The notes beneath the pieces were generated by a model. It was not told the origin of the DNA. It saw only the letters and a program-made list of their open reading frames with translations, and did no database searches. From Cymbomonas tetramitiformis (lineage: Eukaryota; Chlorophyta; Pyramimonadophyceae; Pyramimonadales; Pyramimonadaceae): DNA of 64,000 nt. The position numbers were made by a program, and so were the translations under genes. Position 1 is the stretch's first letter; each line of letters begins with the position of its first letter. The DNA lies in NCBI GenBank assembly GCA_001247695.2, contig LGRX02026029.1, forward strand, positions 35,098 to 99,097, in the 5' to 3' direction. Below are positions 2,621-53,529 of this stretch, piece by piece.

Positions 2621-2898
2621 GATAGCTCAAACGAAAGGTATTCACCTAATGAATACAAACGCTTTAGAATCGAATGGTGGAAAAAAGTATGCTTCATGCT
2701 ACATGCAATAAATTGTTTAGAAGAAGGGGGTGTGCCAGACGCAAAATATTGCACACGCTGAACCGCTTGTACCTCCGCGGTACCTAGTGATAGTTCATAG
2801 TTGATAGTACAAACGATAGATGGCATGTGACATTTAATCTATTCCCGAATTACATCAATTATTTTTTCTATTCCCCATTTTGGGTTAATCTATTCCCG

Positions 2899-3786
2899 CA
2901 TAAATACCCTACCCTTATGATGGCGCAGTCCTCTTCTCTCATCGCCCGGAGTATCTCCCCTATTTCCATTACAGTAATCACCCACCTTTAAGAAAACAGG
3001 AGATATGGGGCCAGCCAGCGATATTCACCAACTTGGGTACCCCCCTCCCCCGCCGCCAGCTGTCCTATGAAAACGCTATGAATAGTGCACCGCGATCTCT
3101 TCACTCAGCCAGCGCATTTCTTAGCCATCCACATGGACACGCACCTAGCCCAGACATTTTCTTAAAATTTTCACTTTGTCACATATCACAGTAATGAGCG
3201 TATGAACACCAGCTGTCCACACATATGTATCTGATGTGTTGTACTAGTTGTCCCTTATTATTTGAATTGTGGTTGTATATCGATGTACATTAAATATTGA
3301 GAGAAGTGATATATTGATGTCACATATCTATAATATCATATGTAATATTTGCAAATGCCAGCATTTTTTTCTTAGCTATAAGAAATTGGATAATCATATC
3401 TTAGGCCGGCCAGCCAGCACCAATATTTCTTATTTTGGTCCGTGCCATAACCTTCAAAAACCAGCCAGCGATATTCACCAAAGCGGGTACCACCCCCCAT
3501 GAAACAGCGGGGGCCTCTTATCGTCGGGTTTTCTTAACGGTGAGTGATGTTCGCATGCCGACACCCTGCCCTTGCATTGTTGTCTCCACTCTTTCCTTTG
3601 TGCAGTCATGTGTCATTCTCCTCATGAATGCGCTCGCTGCTCCTCTCCGTTGAATCTGGTCTCCCTGTGTTTGCGGCTTTTTTCGCTTTCGTTTCACTTA
3701 CCACTTCCACCTCTCCTGTGCCCTCCTCGGTGTGTTGCATCTCTTCCTTCATAATGGCTGCCCTCACCTTTGGTCTGATTTTTTCT
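2899..3786. other. No gene recognised; short direct repeat
   Basis: A segment starting GCCAGCCAGCGATATTCACC occurs near 3010 and again near 3465, about 455 bp apart, each followed by a GGGTACC-containing C-rich stretch. Open frames here lack recognisable domains and look like chance. Confidence 0.5.
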
Positions 3787-13183: not shown

Positions 13184-13223
13184 GTATTAGGAGTCACATG
13201 AGGGGCTCACGGTGATGCTCATG
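13116..13223 (+). repeat. 108-bp dispersed repeat with hairpin, copy 1
   Basis: This segment matches 40144-40251 with about two differences. It contains the dyad GGTGGTCCT / AGGACCACC separated by six bases. Copy 1 abuts the start of the retroelement ORF; copy 2 lies about 200 bp before the MULE TIR. Confidence 0.85.
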
Positions 13224-14855: not shown

Positions 14856-16206
14856 GGAAAAGCTGCTCTTGGCTCAGCAGCAGCAGATCGCCCAGTACGA
14901 CGCGCGTCACAAGTCCAGGAGTTACGCAGTAGGTGATGAGGTTTGGGTAGACGCCACGTACCTCACCCAGCCGGGCGACCGCGGGTTGCACAAGAAGTTG
15001 CTTAAAAAGCGCCTCGGACCCCTTCGGGTGCTGGAAGTCTTTCACAGCGACAGGCAGATGGCCCTTCCCGCGAGCGATAGGGGCGCACCGTCGGCCTATA
15101 GGTTGCAGACGCCTAAGCAGTGGAAAGTGCACGATGTGTTCACCGTGGACCGGCTTTCGCCGGTGGAGTCGAGTAGCCGCTTTGTCGAGAGAGCTAAGGA
15201 GATCCCCCCTCCTCCGTTGGACGTCAGTGGGCGCAAGGAAACCCACGTCGAGAGGGTGGAGCGTTCGCGTACGCGCCAGCGTCAGGGCAGGAGGTGGACG
15301 GAGTACCTAGTCAAGTGGACAGGGATGCCCCGCAGTGAGAACGAGTGGAAGACCCGAGAGGATCTGGAGTGGGACGGAGCCGGCAGGCCCGGCGTTCCCA
15401 ACCGGGCGTTGTTGGAGTTTGAGAGGATCGAGGCTAAGAGAGTGGAGCGAGAGAAGCTTAGGGTCCGTAAGAGGCGCGACGAATCCGCAGGAGCAATGTG
15501 GACCACACTTTCGGAGGAGCTCAAGGTAGACGGCGCAATGCCATGGGTGCCAGAGGAGAGGTTTGATGAGGAAGTAGGAACTTTCGCGAGAGTATCTGCT
15601 CAGGGCACCCTGCCGCCAGTCAACGGAGCCGCAGCACTTGAGAAAGAGCCAGTCGGCCAGTCTAAAATTCTCGTATTGTTCAGTGGGACCGGGTCAGTCG
15701 AGAGGCAATTTACTAAGCAGTTTCCCAACAGCGAAGTAGTTGCCGTAGACATTCAGCCCAAGTGGGGCCCCACACATTGCGAGGATATCATGCGATGGGA
15801 CTACCGACAGTTCAGACCAGGACACTTCGACGTAGTCTGGGCTAGCCCACCTTGTACAGAGTACAGCCAGGCGAAGACGGTAGGCATCCGAGATTTGCGC
15901 GCTGCGGCCAGGCGAGTTCGTAGGACATTGGAGATCATCCGGTACTTGAGGCCCGAAGCATACTTCATTGAGAACCCGAAGGGAAGAGAGCCCCACGGTC
16001 TGCACACGCGTCGATGCATGGGCAATCTACCAGCTCCGCACCTCGTCACATACTGTAAATACGGGACCGCATACAGAAGCCCACGCACATCTGGACCAAC
16101 GTTCCGTTGCACACACCCCTGCGAGTGTGCGATGCCGACACGCCTTGCGAGTTCTTCCGGCAACACGGTAGGCACGAGAAGGTCGCGCAGGGAGGGCGCG
16201 CGATGA
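14749..16206 (+). CDS. Integrase C-terminus, chromodomain and C5-methyltransferase-like domain
   Basis: From about 14805 this frame continues the integrase (TARQFVRQLQLAREKLLLAQ, then VGDEVWV, KLLKKRLGP and VHDVFTVDRL). A chromodomain follows at about residues 165-205 (HVERVERSRTRQ...YLVKWTGMP). After a charged linker a class I methyltransferase begins: ILVLFSGTGSVERQF (about 306, motif I), WASPPCTEYS (about 364, PPC of motif IV) and YFIENPKG (about 405, motif VI ENP). This order matches cytosine-C5 enzymes, and capture of such enzymes by eukaryotic retrotransposons is known. Near 16080 the proper frame is lost and resumes in the frame of 16107-16508. Translation would require a shift near 14800 and another near 16080, so it is probably inactive. 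Confidence 0.75.
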   Translation: MHHGEAELRGGRGAAVKKGTAHETARQFVRQLQLAREKLLLAQQQQIAQYDARHKSRSYAVGDEVWVDATYLTQPGDRGLHKKLLKKRLGPLRVLEVFHSDRQMALPASDRGAPSAYRLQTPKQWKVHDVFTVDRLSPVESSSRFVERAKEIPPPPLDVSGRKETHVERVERSRTRQRQGRRWTEYLVKWTGMPRSENEWKTREDLEWDGAGRPGVPNRALLEFERIEAKRVEREKLRVRKRRDESAGAMWTTLSEELKVDGAMPWVPEERFDEEVGTFARVSAQGTLPPVNGAAALEKEPVGQSKILVLFSGTGSVERQFTKQFPNSEVVAVDIQPKWGPTHCEDIMRWDYRQFRPGHFDVVWASPPCTEYSQAKTVGIRDLRAAARRVRRTLEIIRYLRPEAYFIENPKGREPHGLHTRRCMGNLPAPHLVTYCKYGTAYRSPRTSGPTFRCTHPCECAMPTRLASSSGNTVGTRRSRREGAR

Positions 16207-28859: not shown

Positions 28860-30619
28860 CTATGCGATGCTCCACAGTTCGCAGTGCTGGCACTTCCACT
28901 GGTCAGTAGTGGCCAAGCAGGGGGAATCGAAAGTGTCGCACTCGCCGCTTGAGCCGCTACCTAGCTCCTCGTCGATGAGCAGTGCAAAGTGCCCACCTCC
29001 TCCCACAGCTATGTACTTCTGCCCGTCACTATTCACGGAGCTGTGTTGGAAATATGAGTTCTTCCGGGACCAACGCCAGTACTGGCCGTCGCTCCCACTC
29101 TGCCCCCCGCCCCGCCGCCCCCACCCCGTTCAGACACGCATTCCATCGGCCTCCAAGTTGTTCATCCCTCTCTACCGTCCGAGTTGCTCGTCCCTCTCTA
29201 CCAACGGTGTCATCAATCCCTCGCATCGGCCAAGATATTCCTCGCAGGAGTCGTGCGAGCACTGCAGGGTACTGCATAGCGGCTTCCCACAAGAAGATCT
29301 ATCGCCGTCGTGCGACCGCATATATGGTGGACCCCAGCAGGACCACGCAAGGTGCGCGGTGCGGTGCGCACCTCCCCAGTCACCTCCACCCCTTCCTTCG
29401 CGGCCCCTGCACTCAGCTGGAACACGAAAGTCTCCCCGTTCCCGTAGTATGCTGCCGAATTTCGCCACCGCTCAGCGGCGTAGCACCCGAAGACCCCCCC
29501 TCCGCGATCCTTAAACACAAGCACGGTGGGCGCCTTATTCACGGCCTTGCGCAGCAATGTGTGAAGGCTAACTCCGTCGCGCTTCATACTGTACTCGAGA
29601 GTCCACTTCCCCATATGGTACCGCGGTGGCATTGCCACGGTGAGCCGTCGCACGTCACGCTCCGAGAGCAGACTCGAGGAACCTTCCATCTTCGGTGTCT
29701 TGTAGACTTCACGCCCCAACGCGCGGCAAGTTCCAACTTTCCCAGAAGAGGGGGAAAGAGGAGGGGAGTGCGGGGAGTACGAGCTTGAGGGTGAAAGCGG
29801 GGGAGTCAAATATGCTTCGTCGATACTCGCACGATCGATACTCGCACGAGGAGTCACGAGGAGTTCTCCAGGCTTATTGATTTCGGTCGCGGCGGGGTCC
29901 GTGGCACCGGCCGCAGACTTTGCCGCTTCTTCCTGTCGGGCTTTCTCGAGCTCGAGGAGGTAGCGCTCTTTCTCGTTTTCTTCAAGTTCGTCGAAAAGCT
30001 CCAAGGTGCCACGCAGCCGTGAGGAGAACCCCTTCGCAAGGTTCACGCTGCTGTGTGTGGCGCCGCGTGCGGAGAGAGACACCGCTTCAATGCTACCGGC
30101 GAGTGGCTTGCACAAGAGTTCGAAGGAACCTTTAGCCAGACCTCGCGTGATTGAAAGTGGAGTCCCGTCGTTCAAACCTTTAGCGGACTCGGCCACCAAC
30201 CCCGTCACGCCATCGTACATACCCCCCCCGAAGACTTTGAGTCCACTAACGATTCCTCCCGTGACACCCACCTCACTTCTCTCCAAATCCTCCGAAGTGG
30301 ATAGGAACTTGGGCTTCAAGTTTGAAAAGCGCTCCTGAAGCCGCGAAGGCGCGGACTCCTCCTCCCTACGCGCTCCCCATCCAAAGAAGCGGTCCGGAGT
30401 GTTCTTGATACCGGTCGCAGCTGCGTCGGTCAGTTCGTATATGCCTTCTGTAACGTTCCATAGCCCGGTGCCAAAGCTGCCAATTATGCCTACACGCTCG
30501 TCAACGTTTCCAGGGGGTATCGCTGGGGACTGCGAGGGTGGGTTATCTTCTGCTGGCAGGAAGAAGCTTTCTCCTTCGATGAAGGTGTGCTGCTTAGTGG
30601 TAGTGGCCGTCGCGGCCAT
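28860..30619 (-). CDS. TLDc domain protein with VPS13-C-like N-terminal segment
   Basis: Two exons fit well: 30619-29372, then a 272-bp intron (29371-29100, GAG|GTGCGC...GGCAG|AGT, phase 0), then 29099 to the stop at 28860, giving about 495 residues. Residues ~50-210 carry repeated amphipathic Gly-rich blocks (GGIVSGLKVFGGGMYDGVTG, then SITRGLAKGSFELLCKPLAG) like the C-terminal region of VPS13-type lipid-transfer proteins. A short coiled-coil and a Ser/Pro linker follow. The TLDc domain starts at LLSERDVRRL and continues across the intron to YWRWSRKNSYF, KYIAVGGGGHFALLIDEEL and CDTFDS. TLDc proteins (OXR1/NCOA7 type) act in oxidative-stress protection and V-ATPase regulation. The donor could instead be the earlier GAG|GTGACT. 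Other codon-start choices lie upstream, but 30619 is the first in-frame ATG near a TATA-like box. It is the most convincing host gene here. Confidence 0.85.
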
Positions 30620-30648
30620 CACGGACGAGCAACCAGAACTCCTGAAGG

Positions 30649-30660
30649 AAATATATAAAC
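30649..30660 (-). promoter_or_regulatory. TATA-like box of the TLDc gene
   Basis: GGTTTATATATTTCC on the minus strand lies about 35-40 bp before the chosen ATG at 30619. The short distance would imply a very short leader, so a spliced leader from a more distal promoter is also possible. Confidence 0.3.
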
Positions 30661-31742
30661 CACGAGAGGGCAGTACTGTTCTTTCGACCAAGATCTTGAA
30701 AAGTGTTTCTGTTATCACCTCGCATAAAAGTGTAAAGAGGATGAGTCTATCAGGTTGCAACAGACCCTGTAGGTTGACGATGACAAACGCCGTCTATCTC
30801 CGAAGCCCACGCTATGACCAAGGTTAGTGATCGACAGATACCTGTGTGTTGCAGTGGAATGTCGCCTGTCTGAAGACGGGGAGCTGGTTTGAGGTTTTGG
30901 AGGCGAAGCCTTCTTTCATTTCGTTTCGGTTTGGAACATCTCATATCAAGCGTATCTACTAATCTTGAAAATTCATCATCATCTTCTAGCTTCGAGCATC
31001 AGCAATTCAGCATGTCTCTTGTCTGCACGAGCACGAGCTTGAAAAGGATTCTGTCGTCACGGCATCCGGATCGGCATCCGGCACGGCAGACGGCAGCGGC
31101 ACGCGAGACGCGACGGCAGCGGCAGCGGCATCCGGCAGCGGTTCAGCTGTTGATCGCCGACTTTCCTTCCGTCATCAGTGATGACCGTCATTCCGGGAGA
31201 CGGATCGTCTGATCTCACTCCCCGGATCGAGGAAATGAAGGATCACGAAGTGGCTGTTCACCTCCAGCTTCGGAGTCCAAGTGTCGCAGGGTGTCGCTCT
31301 TAAGTCGGAAATTGGTGAAAATACTTCACTTTTCCTACCTGCTGACGATTGCTGCGTCTTTCTCCTCCGTTTCCTAATAATAATAATGATAGAACATTTA
31401 CGCTAGCAAAGGGGACAAAGTCCTGAGAGTGCGGTATCCCTGCAAAGCAGGCTAGTGAATTTCCTAACACAATTTTTCTTTTGCAAACGGCATGAGTTTC
31501 GCAGCAATCGCTTCAAATTCTGATTTGCGGAGGGCGACCCGCGCCTCCCGCAGCGCACGGGCTCGTCAGCCTGACGAGAATTCCGTACCCAACGTGACGC
31601 CCGCGCTGAATGCAGCAACCTCGTCTCCGCGGTTCTCCCCTCCGCGGGAGGAGCCCGCAATCTTTCGCTCTTGGGTCTTCATAAATCTGAAGGCGGCGAC
31701 GAGGTGGTTCGTGACGCGGGGGAAAGGTGGTCGCGGGAGAAT
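30661..31742. other. Intergenic; weak ORFs only
   Basis: A plus frame at 31492-31764 (90 codons, basic, Ser/Arg-rich) and one at 30889-31212 lack recognisable domains. CGGCAGCGGCA-type repeats occur near 31065-31140. Confidence 0.35.
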
Positions 31743-40251: not shown

Positions 40252-40601
40252 GTTATACATCTTGAGTTTATGACCAAATAAGATAACTGAATCGGTTACT
40301 TCGCACCCTCATCATCATTTCCGCTCTATTTCAGCATGGCGCATGTTCAACACAATGCAAATTCCGAATTTAGTGAATTCCGGACTTTAGAAATTGGCAT
40401 TCATCCATTCTAAAATGTACACGCCAGTCGAAAAAGGAAAAAAGGTTATCGAGGAATAGATTGCTCCAAAATGGGGAATAGAATTTTCGATCTGTTTTTG
40501 GGGAATAGATTATATGTCACATGTAACCATGCTTAATTCAATCGAGCGCCAAAAAATTTTACAAGCAGTTTCACTAGCACACTCCCCAACACTTCACAGT
40601 C

Positions 40602-42576
40602 ATGGAGGACCAGGAGGAGGAAAATTTGCAGTTCACTAGCCCCGGGAAGGATGGACGAGAAGTTTATGAGGATTCCGATCCCGAGGATGAAATTGAGGAG
40701 CTCTGTAGGCGCAAGCGGACACGGACGCACGAGCGTAAAGAGTGGGTGGCCTTGCTAAGTGCTTCATCTTTCGATAGGTGTATGGAAAGAATTAAGGAGG
40801 CGTGTTCTGAAGGCTTCTCCAAGGCGGACAAACCTCACATAGCTAAGAGAACGGGCAATATTACACACAAGTTTAAGTGCTCGTTCTACAAGTCCAGCGG
40901 TTGTCAAGCGTTTTTCAAAATCATACAAAAGTCGAGCGAGTGTTGTGACTTGTTCCAGAGTGGAGAACACGATCACGCGGGATTCTTCAACAAAGGCTTG
41001 AACCCTCGAGTAAAAACCTATTTGGACACGCACTTGAAGATGGGCAAGGGGCCAAAGTCCGTGTTCCTAGAAATGAAGGACGACCTCAGCCTCCCGACAG
41101 TACCGGCTTACGCAACAATCTGCAATTATGCCTACAACAATAAGTACCGAATTTGGGAAACAGAAGATATTAAAACCTACGGTAACTATATGCACGAGTG
41201 CGTGACAGCTAACTTGTTCGCGATCCCCATCACGGACCTCGACACCCCCGGGGTGTTGTGCATGTTTGACGGCCAAGTTCTTCTTCAAGACGGAAGCTAC
41301 GCCGATGTTCCTGCGTACAAGGATAACTCACGCAACAACTTACCTCCCTTGATTTTCCAAGCAACTTCTTGCTTGGAAATCATGGTAGCTTGGCGGCATG
41401 ACAAGTGGAGGGAGGACCCAGCCGTTTGTGAACGGCGCCTACAGCAAGAATTTGAAAAACTCTTGGCGTCAGACGGTTGTTCCCACTTCCTGGAGCTCGC
41501 GTCCAATCTTTTGGCATGTCACGGGTGGAGTACCAAAAAGTCGCATTTCTACAAGGGCAAGCTAAACCTTCGGGCGCTTTTACGCAACTACCAGCAACTT
41601 GTTGAGGACTACCAACTTCAACAAAAACGAAAACGCTGGACCGTGATCTACACTACTTGGGAACTACTTCAAGTTTTGTCCACTAGCGACCACCGCTCTC
41701 GGGACGACACCTACAAGACCAACTGGAACGGCTTTCCCGTTGAGTTCGGCGGTACTTGCTGGTTGGATAAACGTTTCAGAATGGGCTACATGGCCTTGAA
41801 GTCCCACGAGGACGCATTCGCCTCTGAGCTCGTGGACTTTCTCGTCCTTCGGGCAATACGCATTTCCTTTGGCGTTTTGTGGCAACCCAAGCTTCACACG
41901 CTTGACCACTCCCTAGCGTTTTACAATGCAAACTTGTCCCTACCCAAAACCGCTCAGGTCGTCTTCAATCACCTAGAGCGGGGAGACCGTGTTGACGAAA
42001 CCATTAACGACGAAATCATAACGGTGGAGGACGTCAAACAAGGCATATGTTGGGCACACTGCAAGATGAAACTCAACGAAAAGTCTAGCATGTTTAACGA
42101 CGCTAATAACGTCGAGAGCTTCAAGACCGGCGTTGCCGGTGTTCACCGTATCACGCTCACTTCTGTGCGCACCGAAGCCTTCAAGTTGTTGATGTTGTCC
42201 TTCGAGGAGGAGGAGGAGTACATATGCTCGTGGTTCGTGGACTTTTGGTGGGGCCAATGGAGTGGTTGGGTGCTAGGGACGATGCCTCCTGGCAAACCTT
42301 CCACGCAAAATAGCCCCGAGTCCAACAATCGGTGGGCAAAGGCAGCTCTGTGCAACGGCAAACAGCTACAACTGGCTCGGTTTCATAAAAGTGCTATGAA
42401 ATATGTTCGCAACGAAACTATTTTCGAGCGCGAACATCCTTTGCCTACTGGTCCAATTGTGCGACACGATATGTGGCGGGAGGCCCTACTCATGGTGGAA
42501 AGCAACGTCATGGAACTTATGACCAAGGCGACCCGCTTACCCCACCTACCTGACGAGGAGACCATGGTGTTCGTGT
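40602..42576 (+). CDS. MULE transposase, N-terminal and catalytic part
   Basis: From ATG 40602 the protein has an acidic start, a FLYWCH-type finger (FKCSFYKSSGC...GEHDH, about residues 88-127), and a MULE-like RNase H core. Core landmarks are DDTYKTNWNGFPVEF (~368), a conserved CWAHCK block (~485) and ESNNRWAKA (~570). The native frame ends at the hAT insertion point 42576/42577; the printed frame adds SRLGID from hAT sequence before a stop. Removing the hAT element and one target-site copy joins this exactly in frame to 46660, giving about 874 residues without stops. MULE transposases cut and paste their own DNA; here the copy is disabled only by the insertion. Confidence 0.8.
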
Positions 42577-42599
42577 CAAGGCTGGGAATCGATTAGTCG

Positions 42600-42930
42600 A
42601 GGAATTATGATTAATCGATTTAACACTGTATACAACTATCGAATCGATTTGCGATTATGACAAATTAGGAATCGAATAGGTTTGCAAGTATGACAAATTA
42701 TAAATCGAATAGGTTTGCGCTCAGGACTAATCACAAATCAAATAAGTTCGGCGATTACGACAAATTATAATCGAATCGGTTCCCACCCTGGACTAATTAC
42801 TAATCACATAGGTTGCGCGATTACTGGGTACATGAATCAAATCGGTTATGGTGGGTAATATACACCAATCGAATCGCTTTTCAGGAAATCGCCTTAGAAT
42901 CGCATATACACGAAAATCGGTTTGCGCCGT
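42600..42930 (+). repeat. hAT subterminal AATCGAATAGGTTT repeats, left
   Basis: About nine spaced copies of AATCGAATAGGTTTGC variants alternate with GACAAATTA or GACTAATTA. They are in the same orientation as those at the right end. Such clusters are the usual binding sites of hAT transposases. Confidence 0.8.
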
Positions 42931-43177
42931 CATGAAAGTCACCGAAAACCGGTTCTGTCATAACCTAATTGGCGGTATGGTCTGATATTTCGGTTTGATA
43001 TTTTGGTCGAATTGCGACTGGCCCTCGGTACTTGTCCCTGGAGAGCCACGTCCATGTGTCTCACTTGAAATTTTGAAATTTAAAATTTTCAGCTGTTCCA
43101 ACAGCTCGTCCAGCACCCTATATAGCAGCTATTCCCAGTTCAACCACTCATCAGAAGTTCAGAACTCTATCATCATC

Positions 43178-46100
43178 ATGGGTAAGCGTGCATCCAAGAA
43201 AAGTAAGTCTTCGACCAATGACAGCAGGCTCCCCCCCATTGGCAAGGGACCGATCAAACGCACGCCCAATCACGAGTTCGATCATCGTGATAACGCTGAC
43301 AACATTTACCTTGTCGAGTGTATTTTAGCCGAGCGATTGACCAAATCAGGCGATCGTGCAGTGGAAGAATGGCTCATTCGCTGGAAAGGCTACAGTCAGG
43401 CTCACGACACGTGGGAGCCGATCGAGAACCTGGCCGGTCTGGAGGACGATATCGCCAACTTCCGTAGAGAGAAGTCACTACTTGAGCCATTGAAGCTTGG
43501 GAAGCGTAAACGCAAAACCCCCGTCAACGATCACACCCCTGTCGTTGTAGCGGCTGGCAGTAGCGCCGGTGTCCTCAGCATCCAAAGTGGAGAGAATACT
43601 ACCCCTGCCACCCAAGAAGATGTTTCAGATGACGAGGAAGCTGAACATGGTGAAGAGATCCTTCGTCCTGCCATGCGAGGTCGTCGTACCGCGAAGGTAC
43701 GAGTTTGCATTGCCCCCATTGTATGATGTTCTATTTTCATATAGTGCCTCACTGACTGACTGCATTTGTTCACTGCGTGACCTTTGTTCACTGACTGACT
43801 GCGTTTGTTTTGATCGCAGGTCTGGTCGTTGTTCAACGAAATCATCTGCCCCACCACTGATAAGCCCATCGGACTTCTTTGTGCCATCGAAAAGTGCGGT
43901 GCGCGGTTGGCCTCCTCCACCAACACCACCAACGCCCGCCAGCACCTTTCGTATCTCCACAAGGCCCATCTCGCCGAATTGGAGGCCGAGGAGTTTGAGG
44001 CCAACTTTGCAGATGAGCCGTCCCAGGAGGCTGCCGCCCGCGTCCAGTCTGTGATTTCGAAGAACTCTGCCGTCTGGCCCCCTGGGAAACGTGACACTCT
44101 GACCCGAAAGGTGGTGAATTGGTTGTGCAAACGCGCGAGGCCTTTGAGTTTGCCCGAGCGTGACACCGAGCTCTCTGACGTCTTGATGTTCGCCTCCGAG
44201 GGTGCCTACTCCATGCCGTCCAAGCATAACGTCGTCCGCCAGCTCTGTGTGATTTCTGGGAAGGCCCTCGTTCACGATCGACAGAAGGTTGTTGTTTTGA
44301 AGAAGGATCGTGTACTTCCTTCATCAGGTGCGTGTTATTTCCCATGACTGTGCGAATACTTGAGCTGTGACCTGTATTGGAGTGCGTGATATTCCTTTTA
44401 TTCTTAACTGACGGGTACTTTATGGGGCGGGATGCTCGCAGCCATTGACATATGGTCCGAGAACGGTATTGCTCTGTTGGGGATCCTTCTCTATTTTTGG
44501 GCTGCTGGCGGCACTGCCATATCTGAGCTTCTCGTTCGAGCTGTCCCGTTTGGTGAGGTTGCGCACACCGGCACTGAGATTGAGCTGGCGACAAAGAGGG
44601 CACTTGCCCACCTCGGTGTTGGCGAATTTCGAGAGCCAACTTCCGATGCTGACTGTTTTGAGATCGTCGATACTGTCCGTCACTGTCTCCACAAAGCAGT
44701 GGCTGACGGTGCGAGCAACGTTCAAAAGGGCCTCGCTGAGTTCGAGACGTCACCTTGTCCCGCTCATGTTGGTCAGCGTTGTGTTCTGGCGTACCTGGAG
44801 GTCCCCTTGATCAACGCGGTGCACGTCAAAACAAAGGGCATAGCAGCTTTGTTCCGCCGATCTCCGCTCGGGCTTTCTTGTCTCCACCGCTGCCAAACGA
44901 AGTACCAGCTTCCAACCACCCAACCCCCCCGATCGGTGGCTGTCCGTTGGAATAGCACCTTTTTGCAGTGGCAGTGGTTCCCACCTCAGCAAACGGCCCT
45001 TCAAATGTTTGATGTGGAGTCCATGCAACTGAAACTCAGCACCGACGAGATCGGCTCCACGTACCGTGACTTTCAGCTGGATCTGACTGACTGGCAGCTC
45101 ATTCAGCAATCGGTACGACCTTCCCTTTTTATTGTTGAGGGATTTACTTGTCTTTAACTATAGCTTGTACCTGAAATAGATTGCATCAGGATTAAAAAGT
45201 TAGGGGTTGTCATATAACCACCGTTCAGTTCCGTTGATCGGTTCGGTGGCGACTTCCCCGCGCCTTACGACTGCGGGCTTGTACCCCGTGGCACCGGAGG
45301 TTTATCCGTGATAGCAATATAGTTAGTTGTTCACACTTTTATGTGATGAGCTGCAATTCTTCCTGAAAAGTTTTAACTTATCATCGCTGTGTGTTTGCAG
45401 CTTCCTGTATTGGAGCCGGTGAACGAGTACACCCGCATCATCCAAGGCACTCGTTATGTCACGATGTCCTTGGTGTTGCCCATGACGGCTTGGCTCATCG
45501 AGTTTGAGTTGAAGCCCTCTGTTGATGTGGTGTTGGCTGACGGAACGGAGATGAAACACACTGGGTTGTTACCTGCCGTGCGTGAGGGACGTGAAGCCAT
45601 GTACACGCAGTTCGAGCAACGGTGGTGTGCTGATCTCCCAATGGGCATCTTGGAGGACTACACCGTGTCAACCCTTCTTGATCCTCGCTGGAAAAACTGG
45701 GACTTCGACGGGTGCAATATCTTCGACTACGGCTCTATGACTCGTGAGCGTGCGCTGAGCTTTCTGCGAACTGCGTGGACCGACTTCAAGCCGGCTCTGT
45801 CTGCTGATTCTGCCCGTTTGTCCTCTTGCGCTTCTGAAAAGCGAGCAACTGGCGAGTCTTCTTTCATGAGGAAGAAGAAACAAACTGCTAGTAGTAGTAC
45901 CCTTGCTTTGGTCATAAAAGACCAACTTGACACCTACCTGTCTTTGCCCCAAGAAGCTAATGAGGAAGGGTTTGATGTTATGTTGTGGTGGAATGAGAAG
46001 GCAAAGGACCTGCCTGACGTGTATCGCATGGCAAGGCAGTTTTTAGGGTGCCCGGCCACAACTGGTGGTGTAGAACGAACATTCAGTGCTGCTGGTAGGA

Positions 46101-46180
46101 TGCATGATGATCTGCGCAAAAGTACTGATGAGGACACTTTGGAGCATATGCTCCGCGTAAGGATCAGTGACTGCTCATAA
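43178..46180 (+). CDS. hAT transposase with N-terminal chromodomain
   Basis: Exons 43178-43696, 43820-44327, 44442-45112 and 45401-46180 join in frame to about 825 residues; introns are 123, 114 and 288 bp with GT...AG ends. A chromodomain (YLVECILAERL...EEWLIRWKGYSQAHDTWEP, about 45-92) is followed by a BED-type finger (ICP..., then CGARL, then H-x4-H, about 178-215). The hAT core has DIWSENGIALLG (first Asp), VADGASNVQKGL (second Asp), a CPAHVGQR block and RWNST, and ends with the dimerisation motif FLGCPATTGGVERTFSAAGR. Chromodomains are rare in hAT proteins and could direct insertion to marked chromatin. The start is the first ATG after a TATATAGCAG-containing leader. Confidence 0.92.
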
Positions 46181-46319
46181 ATAATATTATTCATATGATA
46201 GATTGTCAGCCTGTTGTGTGCCTGAAGTTATGCCTGCCTGAGCTTATCTTGCCTGAACTTATCCTGCCTAGCTTGCCTGAATAACTTGCCTGAACCGGCC
46301 TTCGTGTGAAATACCCCTT

Positions 46320-46640
46320 GCAGTCTTGATATTCGGGAAAAAACACTGTTATCAAATAGGTTTGTATAGAGAAAAAACACTAACCCAATAGGTTTTGATC
46401 AGTTGATAAACACTAATCAAATAGGTTCCACCTGACTGAAAATTAAGAATCGAATAGGTTACAAAAAAATCAGTACAGTAATCAAATATGTTTGAAATGT
46501 GCACAAACACCCAACACAATAGGTTTCTCAGCATACACTAATTACAATCAAATAGGTATCAGAACATTGAAAATCAGGTATCAAATCGGTTATGAAAATG
46601 CACTAATTAGTTACTAAGAGGTTTCGATTTTCAAACTAAT
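46320..46640 (+). repeat. hAT subterminal AATCGAATAGGTTT repeats, right
   Basis: About nine copies of ATCAAATAGGTT variants at 25-40 bp spacing, with CACTAAT between some of them, mirror the left cluster in kind but are in direct orientation to it. Confidence 0.8.
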
Positions 46641-46655
46641 GCCCAGCCTTGGTTC

Positions 46656-47309
46656 GTGTTGCCTACAATGAAGACCTTCAACAGTCTGAAATCGGTCACC
46701 ATCGCGGACAAACGGAAAGAAATACTTGTTATGGCCGCTGAGTTCCTATCACTTATCCGTGATCCCGTGAACCCCCCCGCCAATGTGACGACGTTCAACG
46801 AGTTCGTCTCCCTATATGCCTCCTTCGTCCTTGTGCAGGCTTCAACAACCCCGACTGATTATGTGCACTACACGTGCAACTGCCCTGAGTTCTACGAAAG
46901 TGGTGTGTGCGCGGACGTGGTGGCAGTGGGGTTATTCAAAGGAAAGTTCAAAGCACCTTTGGAAAAACAGCTCGACTTGATCGGTCGGATTCCCAAAGCT
47001 GGCCGACCAATGAAACCTACTTCTGCACTTCGGCGACAACCCCTTGGCAAGATCACCGGCAAGTTGAAGAGGCTAGCGGGGAAAAAAGCAAGTGACGCTA
47101 TTGAGGAGGACGCAATGGACCGTGAGGTCATGAGCTCCCAAACCGTCTCGCACTCCTTGAAGTGCGAAATATGCATTAAGGCGACTTATGCAAGCAAAAT
47201 GCTAGTGTGCGATGGTTGTGACAAGGGGTACCACATGCATTGTACGATTCCTCCTCTCACACGAGTTCCAGATGGCTTGTTCATGTGCACAGTTTGCTTG
47301 TACCCGTAG
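46656..47309 (+). CDS. MULE transposase, C-terminal part with SWIM and PHD fingers
   Basis: This is the 3' part of the MULE gene displaced by the hAT element; it has no start codon of its own near the junction. YTCNCPEFYESGVCAD is a SWIM-like finger (C-x-C-x8-C-x-H expected, with Asp where His is usual). A PHD finger closes the protein: CEICIKATYASKMLVCDGCD, then GYHMHC and CTVC (C4HC3). PHD fingers read histone tails, so the pre-insertion MULE protein carried a chromatin-reading module. Confidence 0.8.
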   Translation: MLPTMKTFNSLKSVTIADKRKEILVMAAEFLSLIRDPVNPPANVTTFNEFVSLYASFVLVQASTTPTDYVHYTCNCPEFYESGVCADVVAVGLFKGKFKAPLEKQLDLIGRIPKAGRPMKPTSALRRQPLGKITGKLKRLAGKKASDAIEEDAMDREVMSSQTVSHSLKCEICIKATYASKMLVCDGCDKGYHMHCTIPPLTRVPDGLFMCTVCLYP

Positions 47310-47415
47310 ACACATGCAAACATATAATTAATAGCGAATGAACATGTATTAACATACATATATTACAAAGTGTTCTATTGCTAGCTTGTGTTCATAAAAT
47401 TGCATTGTGCTTCTT

Positions 47416-47961
47416 TCACAACAACTCGAAAGAGACCGTCAAAAAGTCTTGAGGTCCTTGGCGTCCAGAGCGTAAAGATGGCTTCTCCAAACCACGACAT
47501 AGGTTTTGGCATAGCCGCACGCACTTGCTACACACGTGAAAAGACTTGTATTTTTCAACAAGCCCGTTATAGTTCCGAATTCCCTTGTACTCAGTGTTCA
47601 CGCCCAAATACGTCTCGCGGAAAACGAGTCGCATGCTTGCGATCTCGTTGCACCACACCCAATAATTTTCCAACTTGCTTTGCCTTTCGGGACGGGGTCC
47701 AAGCATCGATGAAATACGCCAAGGCGATGCGAATTTTTCCACATGATCCTCTTCCCCGTATTCCTTCATTTTCACAAGTGCCTTATGCACTTGGCATCGC
47801 TCCGAAACGCGCGTCAAACATTGGTACGCGTGTGGATCTTGTAGAGGCGGGTACGGGCCGTCGCCCAACCCAAGCCAATATGTCCCAGCTTCTATAAGAT
47901 GTTCTTCGTCCTTTTTCGCTCTACGAATGTTGCAAGGGGTGCACTCCACGGTTGCGGCCAT
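47416..47961 (-). CDS. Cys-rich island protein A
   Basis: ATG at 47961, 181 residues. Putative zinc ligands are spread along it: CTPC near the start, CQVH (~57), WVWC (~101) and CSKC (~144). It is a clear but distant paralogue of the protein at 50202-50726: both share the order C-x2-HK, MxEYGE, WVWC(E/N)E-A, R-VF, CxKC-x3-C and a C-terminal F-L hydrophobic end. I recognise no known family. Its start lies 70 bp from the first long palindrome of the divergent control region. Confidence 0.6.
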   Translation of the reverse strand: MAATVECTPCNIRRAKKDEEHLIEAGTYWLGLGDGPYPPLQDPHAYQCLTRVSERCQVHKALVKMKEYGEEDHVEKFASPWRISSMLGPRPERQSKLENYWVWCNEIASMRLVFRETYLGVNTEYKGIRNYNGLVEKYKSFHVCSKCVRLCQNLCRGLEKPSLRSGRQGPQDFLTVSFELL

Positions 47962-48030
47962 TTTTTTGTTGCGTTTAATATGATAAATTAGCTCAAGTTG
48001 TTACGGTAAATTTACAAGACGGGTACGGTA

Positions 48031-48710
48031 TTTTCTCTAAGTATTATCAGATGTGTTCCCAAAGTGACCAAAAACCGTTCGATTCCGAATCGAACGGTTT
48101 TTTGTCACTTTGGTAACACATCTGATAATACTTAGAGAAAATATTGTATGGTATTTTCGCTTAGTATTATCAGATGTGTTCCCAAAGTGACCAAAAACCG
48201 TTAGATTCCGAATCTAACGGTTTTTGGTCACTTTGGGAACACATCTGATAATACCTAGAGAAAATACCGTACAAGTCTTTTCAGTATAGAGTATTATCTT
48301 GAGCCCGAAATTCACGGCCGTGAATATCTGATTCACGGCCGTGAATCGCGGCTGCACTGCGTTCGGAAAGGCCTAAACCATACGGTGCATGGGGTTCGGG
48401 AGGGGCTACGTACGTTTATGTGAGTGCTGATGTGGGCTTGGTGACAACACCTGAACACGCGCTATGACCGACGACCTGTGAATTTGTTCGGCATTTTCTC
48501 GAAGTATTTTGCGACGTGTTCCCAAAGTGACCAAAAACCGTTCGATTCCGAATCTAACGATTTTTGGTCACTTTGGGAACACATCTGATAATACTTCGAG
48601 AAAATACCATACAGGTCCCTCCCCTCCCGAACGCCCTGCACCCGCGATTCACGGCCGTGAATCTGATATTCACGGCCGCGAATCTGAAATTCACGGCCGT
48701 GAATTCCGGG
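48031..48710. promoter_or_regulatory. Divergent control region 1: long palindromes plus TTCACGGCCGTGAA clusters
   Basis: Near-perfect palindromes of about 111-119 bp lie at 48031-48141, 48150-48268 and 48494-48604. Each reads CTAAGTATTATCAGATGTG, CCCAAAGTGACC, AAAACCGTTCGATTC and then the mirror image. Two TTCACGGCCGTGAA copies lie at about 48311-48347 and three (one with a mismatch) at about 48648-48704. It separates the divergent starts at 47961 (-) and 48780 (+). Confidence 0.75.
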
Positions 48711-48779
48711 CTAGTGTAGCGACTTCCTCGTTTAGTAAACCTACCAAAGCCTAATACCTAACCCGATCTTTAAACAAAT

Positions 48780-50024
48780 ATGGCTTCGAATCAAGCTTCA
48801 CGTTGCGAATGTGGCCAATTAAACAAGATGGGAAAGCTTATTGAATGTAGACAAGATCCCTCGACTATGGACCACGCGGGCAAACCATGCACACGATCTA
48901 AAAGAGGCAAGGGCGAGTTGAGATGCGCAAAATGCAGCGGTCAACAAAAAAAGAAAGAGCCTGCCGTCAAGGAAACATTTTTGGACGACTTTGACCGTAC
49001 GCGAGCTATAGGTTTCGCTAACACCTTCGTGGTGTCTTTACCAGACGAGTCGCGAGAACATCTGGAAAGGCGGTATTCGTGTATGTGGAGGGAGGCCGTG
49101 AACAAGGTCCCGGACTGGAAAAATCTTCCTCCTGGGGTGGTAACCCTCACTGGAGGAAAGCTGGAGGTGTTTCACGAGTCCGCGAAACACGGGGGGGGGA
49201 AAGTGCAGACCGACTTCTACGAGCAATATCTCACGGACGAAGATCGAAAGCACTTGAACGTCTTCGTACACGAGTTGGAAACGAAGGTTATGGAAAATCT
49301 TCGTAAGGAGTACACAATCGAGAATCAAGCATTCTTAATCAACGACAATCTCGTTCGGGAGATTCAGGGGGCGCCTAATACGGTCCTCTCCACCCTTACC
49401 GGGTGGCAACCTTGGCACTTGGACCAGCCACTTAACCAACCTCTCACCGAACGCCCTCATCACTTGGCCATTGTGGCCTACCTTGGCCCATCATCCCCAA
49501 CAAGGTTGTGTTGTGCACCAACACCGTCCTTCGACGCGTCGGTTGAGCTCCTAGGCCAATCGACGCAAGAGAGGTTGCAACTCAACTGCGATGTCCAATT
49601 CCACGAGCAGCGAGCCCTCATGCTCTCGAAGGAAACCCTCGACGCGTATGCGACGAACGTTGGGGGAAAGGATAAAGTGGGATTGGGCGATTGCGCGGTG
49701 GTGGGAGGGGTACACCAAGGGGTGACCAACGCGGATGGCACGCCCCGGGTGGTGTTCTCCGCCAACTTGGCGTTGAAGGGCGTGGCGTCCTACGACCCCG
49801 ATGTTCAGCTGAACCCCGTGAACTCGGCCTTACATTGGGGTTATCTCGACTTCGTTACGAAGGAGTTCGTGAAGTACTTTCTAGCGGGCACAGACCTCAC
49901 CAACACGGTGGACGAGGAGCATAAGAAAGTCCTGAAGGTTTTGGCACGCGATGTTGAGAAAGCCTTAGACAAAGCCGCGAAGGGACCCGTAGGGAAGGCA
50001 CAAGCCAAGCGAATGCGTACATAA
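48780..50024 (+). CDS. Cys-rich protein with 2-oxoglutarate oxygenase-like motif set
   Basis: ATG 48780, 414 residues. The N-terminus has spaced Cys (CECG, then C, then CTRS, then CAKC, to residue ~52) that could bind zinc. The later part has WHLD (His213, Asp215) followed by LAIVAYL, and GGVHQGV (His312) with Arg about 11 residues on in GTPRVVFS. His-x-Asp, a distal His and a following Arg in beta-strand context is the ligand pattern of 2-oxoglutarate/Fe(II) oxygenases. The C-terminus is Lys-rich. Overall family not recognised; the oxygenase call is inferred from motif spacing only. Neighbours suggest a role in nucleic-acid modification. Confidence 0.5.
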   Translation: MASNQASRCECGQLNKMGKLIECRQDPSTMDHAGKPCTRSKRGKGELRCAKCSGQQKKKEPAVKETFLDDFDRTRAIGFANTFVVSLPDESREHLERRYSCMWREAVNKVPDWKNLPPGVVTLTGGKLEVFHESAKHGGGKVQTDFYEQYLTDEDRKHLNVFVHELETKVMENLRKEYTIENQAFLINDNLVREIQGAPNTVLSTLTGWQPWHLDQPLNQPLTERPHHLAIVAYLGPSSPTRLCCAPTPSFDASVELLGQSTQERLQLNCDVQFHEQRALMLSKETLDAYATNVGGKDKVGLGDCAVVGGVHQGVTNADGTPRVVFSANLALKGVASYDPDVQLNPVNSALHWGYLDFVTKEFVKYFLAGTDLTNTVDEEHKKVLKVLARDVEKALDKAAKGPVGKAQAKRMRT

Positions 50025-50201
50025 TAGGCTTACAAAATGCTTTACTTTCAAGACGTGTATGCCATGCTTGGACACTAGCTCAATAGGTGAATAAACATGA
50101 ACATTTACAAGTCTATGCATATTATTACTTGTTTTTGCAAACGAATATTATTTGTTTTACTTGCTCGTTATCGTTACTAGTCTGTGCTAATTCGTTATAT
50201 T

Positions 50202-50726
50202 CTATATTAGCTCGAACTCGACGTTCAAACGTTCATAAATATTCAAACTTGCATTGCGCTCGTGCCTCTCGAGAGGCTGCACCATCCCTTGACATGTTTT
50301 AGCGCACTTAGCGCACAACTTGTACGACACAAGGGAGGTGAAGATATCTGTCGATTTTATTTTCCCATCCTCGGCGTTTCCATGGTCGTGGAAAACGATG
50401 CGAGTGGTTGCGCTCTCCTCGCACCATACCCACGCACCCTGCGTGCGGTTGAGGATAGCGTAGTGGTCGAGCATTGGGAACCAATCGAAAGGAAACTCTA
50501 ATGGTTGCACGCCAGCCTCTCCATACTCCACCATGCATATGAGGACCTTATGCAACTCGCACCGCTTGTTGGGGCGAGTGAGTCCATAGTGGGGATCCTT
50601 GGTAGGGTTCTCGTCTTCCCCGCGCACCACGATGTGCTTCTGCCAAAGGGCTATGCAATTGTATGGGGCGGGTAGGTAGCCTCTGCAAGATTGATAATCC
50701 TCGTCCCTATTTATTATTCGATTCAT
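50202..50726 (-). CDS. Cys-rich island protein B, paralogue of protein A
   Basis: ATG 50726, 174 residues. Shared with protein A are CELHKVLICMVEYGE, WVWCEESATTRIVF, CAKCAKTC and the C-terminal LNVEFELI. Like protein A it lies on the minus strand, pointing away from a palindromic control region. Identity with A is low outside these blocks. Possible small zinc-binding regulator; function unknown. Confidence 0.6.
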   Translation of the reverse strand: MNRIINRDEDYQSCRGYLPAPYNCIALWQKHIVVRGEDENPTKDPHYGLTRPNKRCELHKVLICMVEYGEAGVQPLEFPFDWFPMLDHYAILNRTQGAWVWCEESATTRIVFHDHGNAEDGKIKSTDIFTSLVSYKLCAKCAKTCQGMVQPLERHERNASLNIYERLNVEFELI

Positions 50727-50814
50727 TATTTTATTTGCGGGTGAAGACTAGATTTATCGATATTTCCTTGTAGGGTTTATTACCATGAGAAGGAACCATT
50801 ATTATCTCTACGTA

Positions 50815-51385
50815 TTTTCTCTAAGTATTATCAGACGTGTTCTCAAAGTGACCAAAACCCGTTGGATTCGTAATCGAACGGTTTTTGGTCACTTTGGGAA
50901 CACATCTGATAATACTTAGCGAAAATACCGTACCCGTCTCTATATTTTTTGGTAAGTCTTTACTTTCAGATTCACGGGCGTGAATTTCAGATTCACGGCC
51001 GTGAATTTCCGATTCACGGCCGTGAATTGCGGCTGCGCTGCGTTCGGGAGGGCCTACACCGTGCACGGTGTATGGGGTTCGGGATGTTAATGTGAGTTAG
51101 GAAGTCGGCATGGTGACAACACGCGCTATTCTCTTCGACCTATCTGTCATTTTCCCTAAGTATTGTTAGACGTGTTCCCAAAGTGACCAAAAACCGTTCG
51201 ATTCCGAATCGAACGGGTTTTGGTCACTTTGGGAACACATCTGATAATACTTAGCGAAAATACTGTACAGCAAACCTTCGCTAAGTATTATCAGATGTGT
51301 TCCCAAAGTGACCAAAAACCGTTCGATTCGGAATCGAACGGTTTTTGGTCACTTTGGGAACACGTCTAACAATACTTAGCGAAAA
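50815..51385. promoter_or_regulatory. Divergent control region 2: same architecture
   Basis: Palindromes lie at 50815-50925, 51150-51260 and 51276-51385, with the same core as region 1. Three TTCACGGCCGTGAA copies (the first with one change) lie at about 50970-51028. The region separates the divergent starts at 50726 (-) and 51422 (+); the nearest palindromes end 89 and 36 bp from the start codons. Confidence 0.75.
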
Positions 51386-51421
51386 GTAAGGTTCGTTCCT
51401 ACATAAAATCGAAACGAAAAT

Positions 51422-52735
51422 ATGCGTAAAGAAAAGTGTAACGATATATGCGATGCGAAAGAGCCTAGCCTACAAGACTTTCGCAAAGTACTCGCGCGTT
51501 TATTAGGACCATACGCGAAGTTAGGCGATAGCAAGCCAGAGTTTTGGCCAGAAGGTGTTAAGTATAAGGATGGGAAAACAGGCTACGACTACGGACGCGT
51601 AGACTTGACAACGATTTTCGAAGCGTATTGTGGGTATATTTTCAACGATACGTATTCGATTAACCAGGGGGGAATATCATTGGTGTTCAAAGCACTGTTG
51701 ATGGTTCGCCCTGTGGAGAGCGCCGCGCTTGGCACGACATGTGGTGTTGGCACATGTTGTGCCAAGCATAGTCGAGTTCTCGCATTCGACAAGTGGGTAG
51801 ACAAGATAACAAGATGCGCGATATCTGAGAAGGTGTCAGAGGCTCAAGAGTTGGATGAAGTACCGGAGGAGGAGGCAACGCATGTGGAGATGCCCCAACC
51901 AGAGCTAGAGAGAGAGCTTGAGCATGAGGAGTTGCAAGATGTAGAGGCAGAAGTGGCACACAAAATGCCAACAAAAAGAAAGCGAAGTGCGCTATCAACG
52001 AGGTGTGCGCGCCTTTCAAGTTATCCATTTGCAATTGATTTACCACGCAAATGTTGCAAGTCTACAAGTTTTTATCCCACTCTTAAAGGGCAATACACAC
52101 CACTACTAGCTTTTTTCAAAGAAAGTTTCAAAGGCCTAAGGATATTTGATTTCTGCTGCGGACAAGCACCGCATTATGTTTACGAGAATCTTGTGGCGTT
52201 CAAGCCCAAGACAATTTTCCTGAGCGATCACAAGCCTGCAAAAGGGATAAGAAAACTTGATTTAGCAATAATAGACTGGGAACTTTTCAAACCGAAGATT
52301 GACGTAATTGTGTCGTCTTTACCTTATGCTAGAGGTTTGTGCGAACCGTTATTAGCAGCTTGCCTTAATTCAAAGGCGTCCGTGGTATGCTTGAAATTGT
52401 TGCATTCTTTCGAGCGACCAGTGGTGGGAGATAACAGAGCTGAATGTTTTAACAAGTTAGCTTTGAAGATCTTGTTACCCCCTGCGAAATACCCCGGGTA
52501 TGACCGCAGCTTAGGAGACGTGGAAGCGTGGTACGTTTTTTCCAACTCAGAAGAAGCGAAAGAAATGATAGCAACAAAAGCCCAAGAGTTCCACACACAT
52601 CTTTACAAGGGAATGGAAAGCAAGGGGAACGCACCTTATATGTATGATGGTGAAGCTTTTACCGTGGCCTCTTTCTTGACTAGAGGGATAATATTGTGGG
52701 AATCGCGGAGACAGGCGCAAGCGACTTCCAATTAG
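51422..52735 (+). CDS. Methyltransferase-like protein of the island
   Basis: ATG 51422, 437 residues. After an N-terminal domain of unknown type and an acidic linker (about 145-190), the segment RIFDFCCGQAPHYV (~243) looks like SAM-binding motif I, TIFLSDHKP like motif II, and DVIVSSLPYARG (~295) like motif IV of class I methyltransferases, with SLPY in place of the N/DPPY of N6-adenine enzymes. CLKLLHSFERP and WYVFSN fit later strands. The catalytic residue set is therefore atypical. The stop overlaps the open frame of the next gene by 44 bp in the +1 frame. Confidence 0.5.
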   Translation: MRKEKCNDICDAKEPSLQDFRKVLARLLGPYAKLGDSKPEFWPEGVKYKDGKTGYDYGRVDLTTIFEAYCGYIFNDTYSINQGGISLVFKALLMVRPVESAALGTTCGVGTCCAKHSRVLAFDKWVDKITRCAISEKVSEAQELDEVPEEEATHVEMPQPELERELEHEELQDVEAEVAHKMPTKRKRSALSTRCARLSSYPFAIDLPRKCCKSTSFYPTLKGQYTPLLAFFKESFKGLRIFDFCCGQAPHYVYENLVAFKPKTIFLSDHKPAKGIRKLDLAIIDWELFKPKIDVIVSSLPYARGLCEPLLAACLNSKASVVCLKLLHSFERPVVGDNRAECFNKLALKILLPPAKYPGYDRSLGDVEAWYVFSNSEEAKEMIATKAQEFHTHLYKGMESKGNAPYMYDGEAFTVASFLTRGIILWESRRQAQATSN

Positions 52736-53423
52736 CGACTCGCCTAGGTTCAAAGCGTTGTGCGGAGAGCTAGAATCCGTGTTGCATGCTGAAACGTGCA
52801 AGCGCATCGAGAGGCGCGACAAAAAGGACGACCGCGATGAAGAAGAAGGCGCGGCTCCGAAGGTGGGTTGGAATCTTGGATGGTGGTTCAACATGGGGAG
52901 AACTGCGCAACAGTGGGGATTCGCCAAGAAGAAGGACGGGACGTCTGCGTTTAGCTTGAAGCATCCTTTTTTCAAGAACAGAGGCGTATATCTAGACGAC
53001 CCTCTAGTGTCGAAGAGCAACCCATATTGGAAGAAGGAGATCTTTATGCTAGCAGGGGAACTATTGAAGTGTATTGATGCGAATTACCACGGCGTCCACG
53101 GGGATTGGTGTTTGTACGTATCGTGCATGATGAGCGACATGTGCGAGGTTGGTAGGCACACAGACAAGCACGACGTGTCACATCAATACAACATATTCCT
53201 AGGGAGGTTCGAAAATGCCGTTTACGAGGTAGAGTCGCCGTACAACGACGAAGTGAAGTGTTTTTTTGACACGCATAAAGTGTTTAAATCCGACGCAAGG
53301 TGCAAGCATAGGATCAATTCTGCGGGCTTCATAGGAGTGCGCTATTGTGTAACCTTCTACAAAATGTACGATCGTACACAGGAGAAGGAAGATCCTATAT
53401 TTTGGCCGCCTACCTATATCTAA
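52692..53423 (+). CDS. TET/JBP- or AlkB-like 2-oxoglutarate oxygenase candidate
   Basis: The frame is open from 52692 but has no ATG before about 52893; the protein-like start RKRLPISDSPRF overlaps the end of the methyltransferase-like ORF. In the C-terminal half VGRHTDKHDVSHQYN gives a His-x-Asp (about 53157), then KHRINSAGFIGVRYCVTFYKMY gives a distal His and an Arg before a strand, the ligand order of Fe(II)/2-oxoglutarate DNA/RNA oxygenases. Missing start plus +1 overlap suggest either a fused methyltransferase-oxygenase made by frameshifting, a lost intron, or an indel. Confidence 0.5.
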   Translation, partial: YCGNRGDRRKRLPISDSPRFKALCGELESVLHAETCKRIERRDKKDDRDEEEGAAPKVGWNLGWWFNMGRTAQQWGFAKKKDGTSAFSLKHPFFKNRGVYLDDPLVSKSNPYWKKEIFMLAGELLKCIDANYHGVHGDWCLYVSCMMSDMCEVGRHTDKHDVSHQYNIFLGRFENAVYEVESPYNDEVKCFFDTHKVFKSDARCKHRINSAGFIGVRYCVTFYKMYDRTQEKEDPIFWPPTYI

Positions 53424-53529
53424 AGAACTAGTATCCGTGGGGAGAAGTTGTCTTCAAAGTATTCCGGGCTCAAGCCCGCTCCACAGTCTACCCGACAAAA
53501 CTTAGTTGAACTCACCCTACAGATCTGCA

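Follow-up and report, generated by a model that had tools for sequence, protein, structure and literature searches.

In a 64,000-nucleotide stretch of contig LGRX02026029.1 from the prasinophyte alga Cymbomonas tetramitiformis (here called the window), five genes for a methyltransferase-like, two oxygenase-like, and two Cys-rich proteins lie side by side at positions 47416 to 53423, which raises the question of what kind of unit they form and what it might do. A preliminary description of this DNA, made from the letters alone, treated the genes as an isolated island, read it as a mobile DNA- or RNA-modifying cassette, and named a viral insertion as an alternative. We found that they are instead the right part of a cut-and-paste DNA transposon (family 1) that starts at position 40436 and, where complete, includes a sixth cargo gene.

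The window copy of the family 1 transposon extends from 40436 to 53518 on the plus strand and has the left end GGAAAAAAGGTTATCGAGGAATAGA, as judged by BLAST comparison with 20 further copies. Over their matching stretches, these 20 copies are colinear with window positions 40436 to 42576 and then 46652 to 53518, and the copy-to-window alignments overlap by 8 bp where 42576 meets 46652. The right end is missing from the window copy, which another repeat truncates at 53518; the window continues from 53519 with an array of TTCCATAGG/CCTATGGAA repeats, and sequence of this array (99.3% over 297 bp) also adjoins the left end of another copy, L015. The C. tetramitiformis genome that we searched comprises 851.7 Mb, and all genome counts are lower bounds, with the best 40 of 729 candidates scored for a probe from the cargo region, 150 of 770 for the cargo protein P221, and 40 of 391 for the palindrome described below. 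Within this scope, the cargo-region probe of 1,201 bp had 30 matches with at least 98% identity over at least 1,199 bases, window included.

Three copies whose two ends were both read (A, B, and C) start with GGAAAAAAGG, finish with GCTACC, have inverted ends, and are flanked by the 9-bp target-site duplications ATTACTATA, ATTGTTGGT, and CAGGTGGCG. Of the five copies read at both ends, four (A, B, C, and L034) have such a duplication and L035 does not. The terminal inverted repeats of family 1 are nearly identical over about 55 bp, after an outer 17 bp or so of lower similarity; the ends of a second family (family 2, comprising L034 and L035) are likewise inverted, and both families start with GG and finish with CC. 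The preliminary description had proposed a search of the genome for further copies, and the many near-identical copies found, together with the terminal inverted repeats and the 9-bp duplications, strongly support its view that the cassette is mobile. Copies differ in size and content. Copies A and B measure about 9.85 kb, while copy C (L016 joined to L031) has an extra 5.8 kb placed between repeats of a 16-bp palindrome; the longest frame listed in this extra segment is 255 amino acids (aa). Seven copies (L016/copy C, L013, L015, L017, L018, L022, and L027) cease to match at window position 50985, four have an additional palindromic unit of about 123 bp near 48023 to 48271, most of the cargo is gone from L024 within the stretch read, and 50949 to 52367 is absent from L028. 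A further copy, of a related element and shortened by internal deletion, also lies in the window (183 to 2917, minus strand), with cargo remnants, a palindrome at 1708 to 1790, and two 16-bp sites.

The transposase gene of the window copy is disrupted, with its 5' part at 40602 to 42596 and its 3' part, encoding a SWIM-like motif and a PHD finger (PF00628, E = 8.7e-10; alignment), at 46656 to 47309, both on the plus strand. The interruption is a nested hAT-like insertion (42577 to 46651) with an 8-bp duplication, GTTCGTGT, and 10-bp perfect inverted ends, CAAGGCTGGG; its frame at 45389 to 46180 contains a hAT dimerisation domain (E = 6.3e-15), and the insertion is missing at the same junction from the copies compared. 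Longer transposase frames were found in relatives, as a 728-aa piece in L009 and an uninterrupted 905-aa frame in L035. The C-terminal PHD finger matched PF00628 with E values from 1.7e-9 to 5.1e-12 and is preceded by the SWIM-like motif CxCx8C. By eye, the L035 protein has D428, D474, C516-x2-H519, E606, and the CxCx8C motif, all kept in L009 at about 50% identity. A DDE triad with C(2)H between the second D and the E, plus a SWIM zinc motif, is the layout of MuDR transposases. The MULE transposase profile of Pfam-A gave no match, the rows up to an E value of 10 being PHD-finger models and one C1-type zinc model. Target-site duplications of 8 to 11 bp are given for the MuDR/MULE superfamily (PMC6446971). 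The PHD finger, the kept D/D/CxxH/E order, and the 9-bp duplication thus suggest an autonomous, MuDR/Rehavkus-like transposon, a fit limited by the missing MULE profile match, and "MuDR-like" is used here as a likeness, not as assignment to the superfamily.

The cargo of copy A comprises six genes in the order Cys181(-), P414(+), Cys174(-), MT437(+), P221(+), and Cys255(-). In the window, Cys181 (47416 to 47961, minus strand) encodes a Cys-rich protein of 181 aa; P414 (48780 to 50024, plus strand) encodes 414 aa with N-terminal Cys motifs and an HxD...H...R set, the conservation of which marks it as a putative 2-oxoglutarate (2OG)-Fe(II) oxygenase; and Cys174 (50202 to 50726, minus strand) is an open frame for a Cys-rich protein of 174 aa. 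MT437 (51422 to 52735, plus strand) encodes a class I methyltransferase-like protein of 437 aa with D[FV]CCGxxP at motif I and SSLPY at motif IV, and P221 (52692 to 53423, plus strand) is an open frame of uncertain start codon with H134xD136...H184...R195, numbered from 52758. Only the last 31 codons of Cys255 (53423 to 53515, minus strand) lie in the window; the 255-aa frame is complete in other copies. The gene layout first described, with five frames and four divergent genes leaving two control regions, was confirmed in sequence, as was the paralogy of Cys181 and Cys174 (33% identity over 143 aligned positions; BLASTP E = 3e-19). A profile comparison of Cys255 with Cys174 and Cys181 did not support kinship, though short Cys/His motifs look alike by eye.

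Among 21 copies (20 fetched plus the window), frames were open over at least 98% of their length in 21 for Cys181, 16 for Cys174, 11 for P414, 9 for P221, 8 for Cys255, and 7 for MT437; misses of the right-side genes often come from the end of the stretch or the break at 50985, and the others are broken frames. P221 matches in the genome grade in identity from 100% to 60%, with a stop in 18 of the best 150 of 770 candidates. The P221 frame has no ATG upstream of 52893. Since homology to relatives extends 5' of this first ATG, and since the annotated gene models P0006 to P0008 fuse P221 to MT437, the protein may be produced by splicing, a non-ATG start, or frameshifting. Another model, P0018 (CYMTET_51044), joins an apparent transposase N-terminus to P221 and perhaps derives from a copy with an internal deletion or from the joining of gene models.

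Two control regions separate the divergent genes. Control region 1 (48021 to 48704), between Cys181 and P414, contains three palindromes of 119 to 145 bp (48021 to 48151, 48137 to 48281, and 48490 to 48608) and five sites of the 16-bp palindrome ATTCACGGCCGTGAAT; control region 2 (50811 to 51387), between Cys174 and MT437, contains three palindromes of 115 to 119 bp (50811 to 50929, 51148 to 51262, and 51273 to 51387) and three such sites. The palindromes were located by script, with arms of 57 to 72 bp and at most 12% mismatch. The two regions are related to each other, with 67 to 71% identity over about 650 to 680 aligned bases. Every gene start had been said to face a palindrome; this holds for Cys181, P414, Cys174, and MT437, with start codons about 35 to 172 bp from the closest one, but not for the transposase, the frame at 52692, or Cys255.

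Allowing up to two mismatches, we counted 10 occurrences of the 16-bp palindrome in the window, where 0.02 would be expected; eight lie in the control regions and two in the deleted copy at 183 to 2917, and by coordinates all palindrome and 16-bp sites of the window lie within the two element copies. Over 37 fetched loci plus the window, element spans held 137 of the 138 60-bp bins with palindrome-core matches and 191 of the 193 16-bp sites, and the three exceptions all belong to the sequence that flanks L035 on its left side. In this count, overlapping loci were counted repeatedly, a span covered everything between the outermost element matches (in the window taking in the stretch between the two copies), and about 80 kb lay outside. 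The preliminary description had raised the prospect of palindromes scattered through the genome without the cargo genes. Among the best 40 of 391 palindrome candidates, to which this comparison extends, 36 of 40 contigs also carry P221 (best 150 of 770 candidates). The other four (C5775, C19877, C3432, and C880) have the palindrome and are not among the scored P221 matches, and in C5775 and C19877 it lies so close to the contig end that P221 would fall off the contig. One resemblance was treated as chance: AAGTATTAT of the palindrome agrees in 8 of 9 letters with YAGTATTAY, given as the VANC21 motif in PMC5735166, and the true motif occurs once in the window.

The motifs that had suggested enzymes, SLPY in MT437 and HxD...H...R in P414 and P221, are present and conserved in those relatives that extend across them. 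For MT437, D[FV]CCGxxP and SSLPY are kept in alignments of six and eight sequences; H134, D136, H184, and R195 of P221 are invariant in five sequences from about three lineages; and P414 relatives spanning the motifs retain GWQPWHLDQP and GGVHQGVxNADxTPR. Amino-methyltransferases carry [DNS]PP[YFW] at motif IV, where MT437 has SSLPY. The best matches of a low-confidence structure model of MT437 were N6-adenine-type methyltransferases, with DOT1L and METTL21D also among the matches, and those of a low-confidence P221 model were HIF prolyl hydroxylases, which are 2OG enzymes (7.7 for the top prolyl hydroxylase and 6.5 for ABH3, an AlkB-type protein). None of the six cargo proteins had a convincing sequence match in Pfam, PHROGs, or PDB; weak rows from these searches, including FlbD, YDR124W, and TCERG1, were judged to be chance. 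A genome search with PF12851 (Tet_JBP) found nothing, but 14 control genomes were equally empty, making it uninformative. On motif residues and a weak model in each case, MT437 is a putative class I methyltransferase, perhaps of the N6-adenine type, and P221 a putative 2OG/Fe(II) oxygenase, and the P414 motif points to a putative enzyme of the latter type. The methyltransferase and oxygenase assignments of the preliminary description gain moderate support in this way, and the fold predictions it had called for came out in the expected direction, at low confidence, for the frames at 52692 and 51422. A TET/JBP-type identity gained no support, as Pfam gave no match to either P221 or P414.

In family 2, the transposase is about 50% identical to that of family 1, the inverted ends are its own, and one of the two copies has a 9-bp duplication. 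Five of the six cargo genes are retained in L034 and L035, with no separate copy of Cys181. Cargo identities of L034 are 50% for MT437, 58% for P221, 54% for Cys255, 75% for P414, and 87% for Cys174; L035 is similar, with a broken MT437 frame. The P414-Cys174 block is inverted relative to family 1 and, at synonymous sites, much closer to the window (dS of 0.78 for P414 and 0.22 for Cys174) than the other genes, which are saturated (pS of 0.72 to 0.92). Because of this difference, we infer that the block passed between the families after they had split, and the kinship of the control regions that flank it would favor inversion by recombination. Between the families, nonsynonymous differences are 0.26 to 0.33 per site where synonymous sites are saturated, and dN/dS against family 2 is 0.22 for P414 and 0.28 for Cys174. 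Ratios between L034 and L035 (0.59 for P414, 0.72 for the transposase, and 1.06 for Cys255) rest on few changes and are little informative. Because nonsynonymous change is low against saturated synonymous change, and given these dN/dS values, sequence comparison indicates that the cargo is maintained as protein under purifying selection and is not passive freight.

A further locus, L037 (contig C17208), holds an MT437-P221-Cys255 trio in which a 106-bp palindrome precedes MT437 by about 50 bp, and neither a transposase nor P414 within the 10 kb read; it may be a different kind of element, a remnant, or a cluster that has settled in the host. Relatives of MT437 (P0002) and P221 (P0020) were also found on ENA contigs of 3,504 bp that are probably one and the same, and P0002, close to L034 by eye, may stem from this alga or a closely related one.

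With the transposon, its ends and abundance, the cargo linkage between diverged families, and selection on the cargo frames established, the explanation that we favor, and to which we give about an even chance of being right as a whole, is a MuDR-like element whose writer- and eraser-like cargo acts as a self-marking or anti-silencing cassette. MT437, as an N6-adenine-type methyltransferase, would add a mark, which P221 and P414, as 2OG/Fe(II) oxygenases, would remove or convert. The Cys-rich proteins would bind the palindromes of about 110 bp and the 16-bp palindrome in the control regions, which would serve as bidirectional promoters driving the divergent gene pairs. In the face of chromatin silencing by the host, the cassette might in this way maintain the activity of the element's promoters or adjust its transposition, by analogy with VANC in VANDAL MULEs and with the proposed role of TET/JBP in fungal transposons. 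More tentative, and on balance doubtful, is a complete reversible marking system for nucleic acid in which MT437 is an N6-adenine writer, P221 and P414 are erasers or converters, three zinc proteins sit on palindromic operators, and blocks are exchangeable between families.

As to the mark, the element copies have no clear excess of CpG transitions that would form a decay footprint. Singleton transitions numbered 9 at 923 CpG bases (0.0098 per site) versus 34 at 2,774 other C/G bases (0.0123), transitions common to copies numbered 12 (0.0130) versus 24 (0.0087), and the observed/expected CpG ratio was 0.92 to 1.17 in the element stretches measured. For this reason, a 5-methylcytosine (5mC) eraser is disfavored, and together with the adenine-type model of MT437 the result makes adenine the preferred substrate, so that the mark is perhaps adenine directed, with RNA or protein as other possible substrates. 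In prasinophytes, however, 5mC is reported to occur across gene bodies (PMC12344493).

The enzymes might act on proteins, with P221 and P414 as prolyl hydroxylase-like enzymes and MT437 as a protein (histone) methyltransferase, and with chromatin proteins or the transposase as targets. HIF prolyl hydroxylases are the top matches of the P221 model, DOT1L and METTL21D are among those of MT437, and the transposase bears a PHD finger, often a histone-reading domain; however, most rows for MT437 are adenine-N6 methyltransferases, its SSLPY lies at the position of the amino-methyltransferase motif [DNS]PP[YFW], and AlkB-type ABH3 also appears in the P221 list, at 6.5 versus 7.7. We consider this reading unlikely. 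Ranked below it, and also unlikely, is a cargo that serves transposition itself and has no anti-silencing role; methylated adenines in the ends or promoters would couple excision to replication, much as Dam methylation does with bacterial IS elements. The cargo genes accompany the transposase in two families, the MT437 model is of the adenine type, and the absence of a clear CpG footprint gives no sign of silencing, all of which would suit such timing; the palindromic sites, however, are internal to the element, in the control regions, and not at its ends, and a need for two oxygenases is not obvious.

Passive capture of functionless host gene pieces, in the manner of Pack-MULEs, is very improbable. 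Host gene fragments are often captured by MULEs (PMC6431247, PMC6446971), but here whole frames are retained between families at saturated synonymous divergence (dN/dS of about 0.2 to 0.3 where measurable), 132 of the best 150 of 770 P221 candidates have no stop, and both families share the gene set and control sites. Least probable of all is an endogenous viral element (a polinton-like, giant, or mirus virus), the alternative that the preliminary description had named. Such elements are abundant in the C. tetramitiformis genome (PMC10675990), but scans of IMG/VR with the MT437 and P414 alignments confirmed no relative, P221 had no match in phage records, the element is about 10 kb long with a transposase and 9-bp duplications, and by inspection no capsid- or polymerase-like frame is among those listed for a complete copy.

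Elsewhere in the window, a Ty3-type retroelement remnant (13212 to 16206) has two methyltransferase domains, one a Dam-like adenine methyltransferase domain (PF05869, E = 5.2e-9) upstream of the integrase and one C5 DNA methylase-like (PF00145, E = 8.3e-5) downstream of the chromodomain. A TLDc-domain frame (PF07534, E = 1.6e-23) lies at 29213 to 30760 on the minus strand.

Epigenetic factors on transposons are known mostly singly (VANC, TET/JBP, SET, and DNMT). None of the libraries searched contained a family matching the cargo proteins, which for that reason could be new base- or protein-modifying enzymes. A conserved multicopy set of methyltransferase-like and oxygenase-like proteins in one sequenced alga would make the writing and erasing of its own mark by mobile DNA directly testable, and Oxford Nanopore reads have already been produced for C. 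tetramitiformis (PMC10675990). In the literature searched, we found no earlier account of a MuDR-like green-alga element with a methyltransferase-like and two oxygenase-like proteins.

The SET domain has a fold unrelated to the class I methyltransferase-like MT437. A Phytophthora MuDR with a SET histone methyltransferase, cited in PMC12730594, resembles the alga element as a MuDR bearing an epigenetic enzyme and differs in that the retrieved text mentions no oxygenase. Some retrotransposons encode a cytosine or Dam-like methyltransferase of their own, likewise under purifying selection (de Mendoza 2018, PMC5890265), but these are RNA-copying elements of dinoflagellates and charophytes, with no oxygenase mentioned in the retrieved text. 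Rehavkus shares the 9-bp duplication and a PHD finger in the transposase; in contrast, it comes from Arthropoda and Annelida and has one open reading frame and a minisatellite before its 3' end (PMC6446971). Fungal DNA transposons with TET/JBP (Kojima 2025, PMC12730594) also have a 2OG-type oxygenase aboard, with the gene swapped between transposon lineages and frames kept. The carriers given there are fungal Dileera, Kyakuja, Zisupton, hAT, Harbinger, IS3EU, EnSpm, ESTA, Plavaka, and Helitron elements, whereas MuDR is not named in the retrieved text and "green alga" does not occur in the main text; unlike the alga element, they are described as encoding no additional protein for further modification. 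Fungal transposon TET/JBP is proposed to counter silencing, and the related CcTET also acts on N6-methyladenine (PMC12730594). The VANDAL MULEs of Arabidopsis, which encode the anti-silencing protein VANC (PMC5735166, PMC10398659), are likewise of the MuDR type, with proteins beyond the transposase and family-specific motifs repeated in noncoding DNA, and with 9-bp duplications tabulated (PMC6446971). VANC demethylates elements of its own family by way of short motifs that are often tandem repeated (PMC5735166); it is a DNA-binding protein, whereas the alga element carries methyltransferase-like and oxygenase-like proteins.

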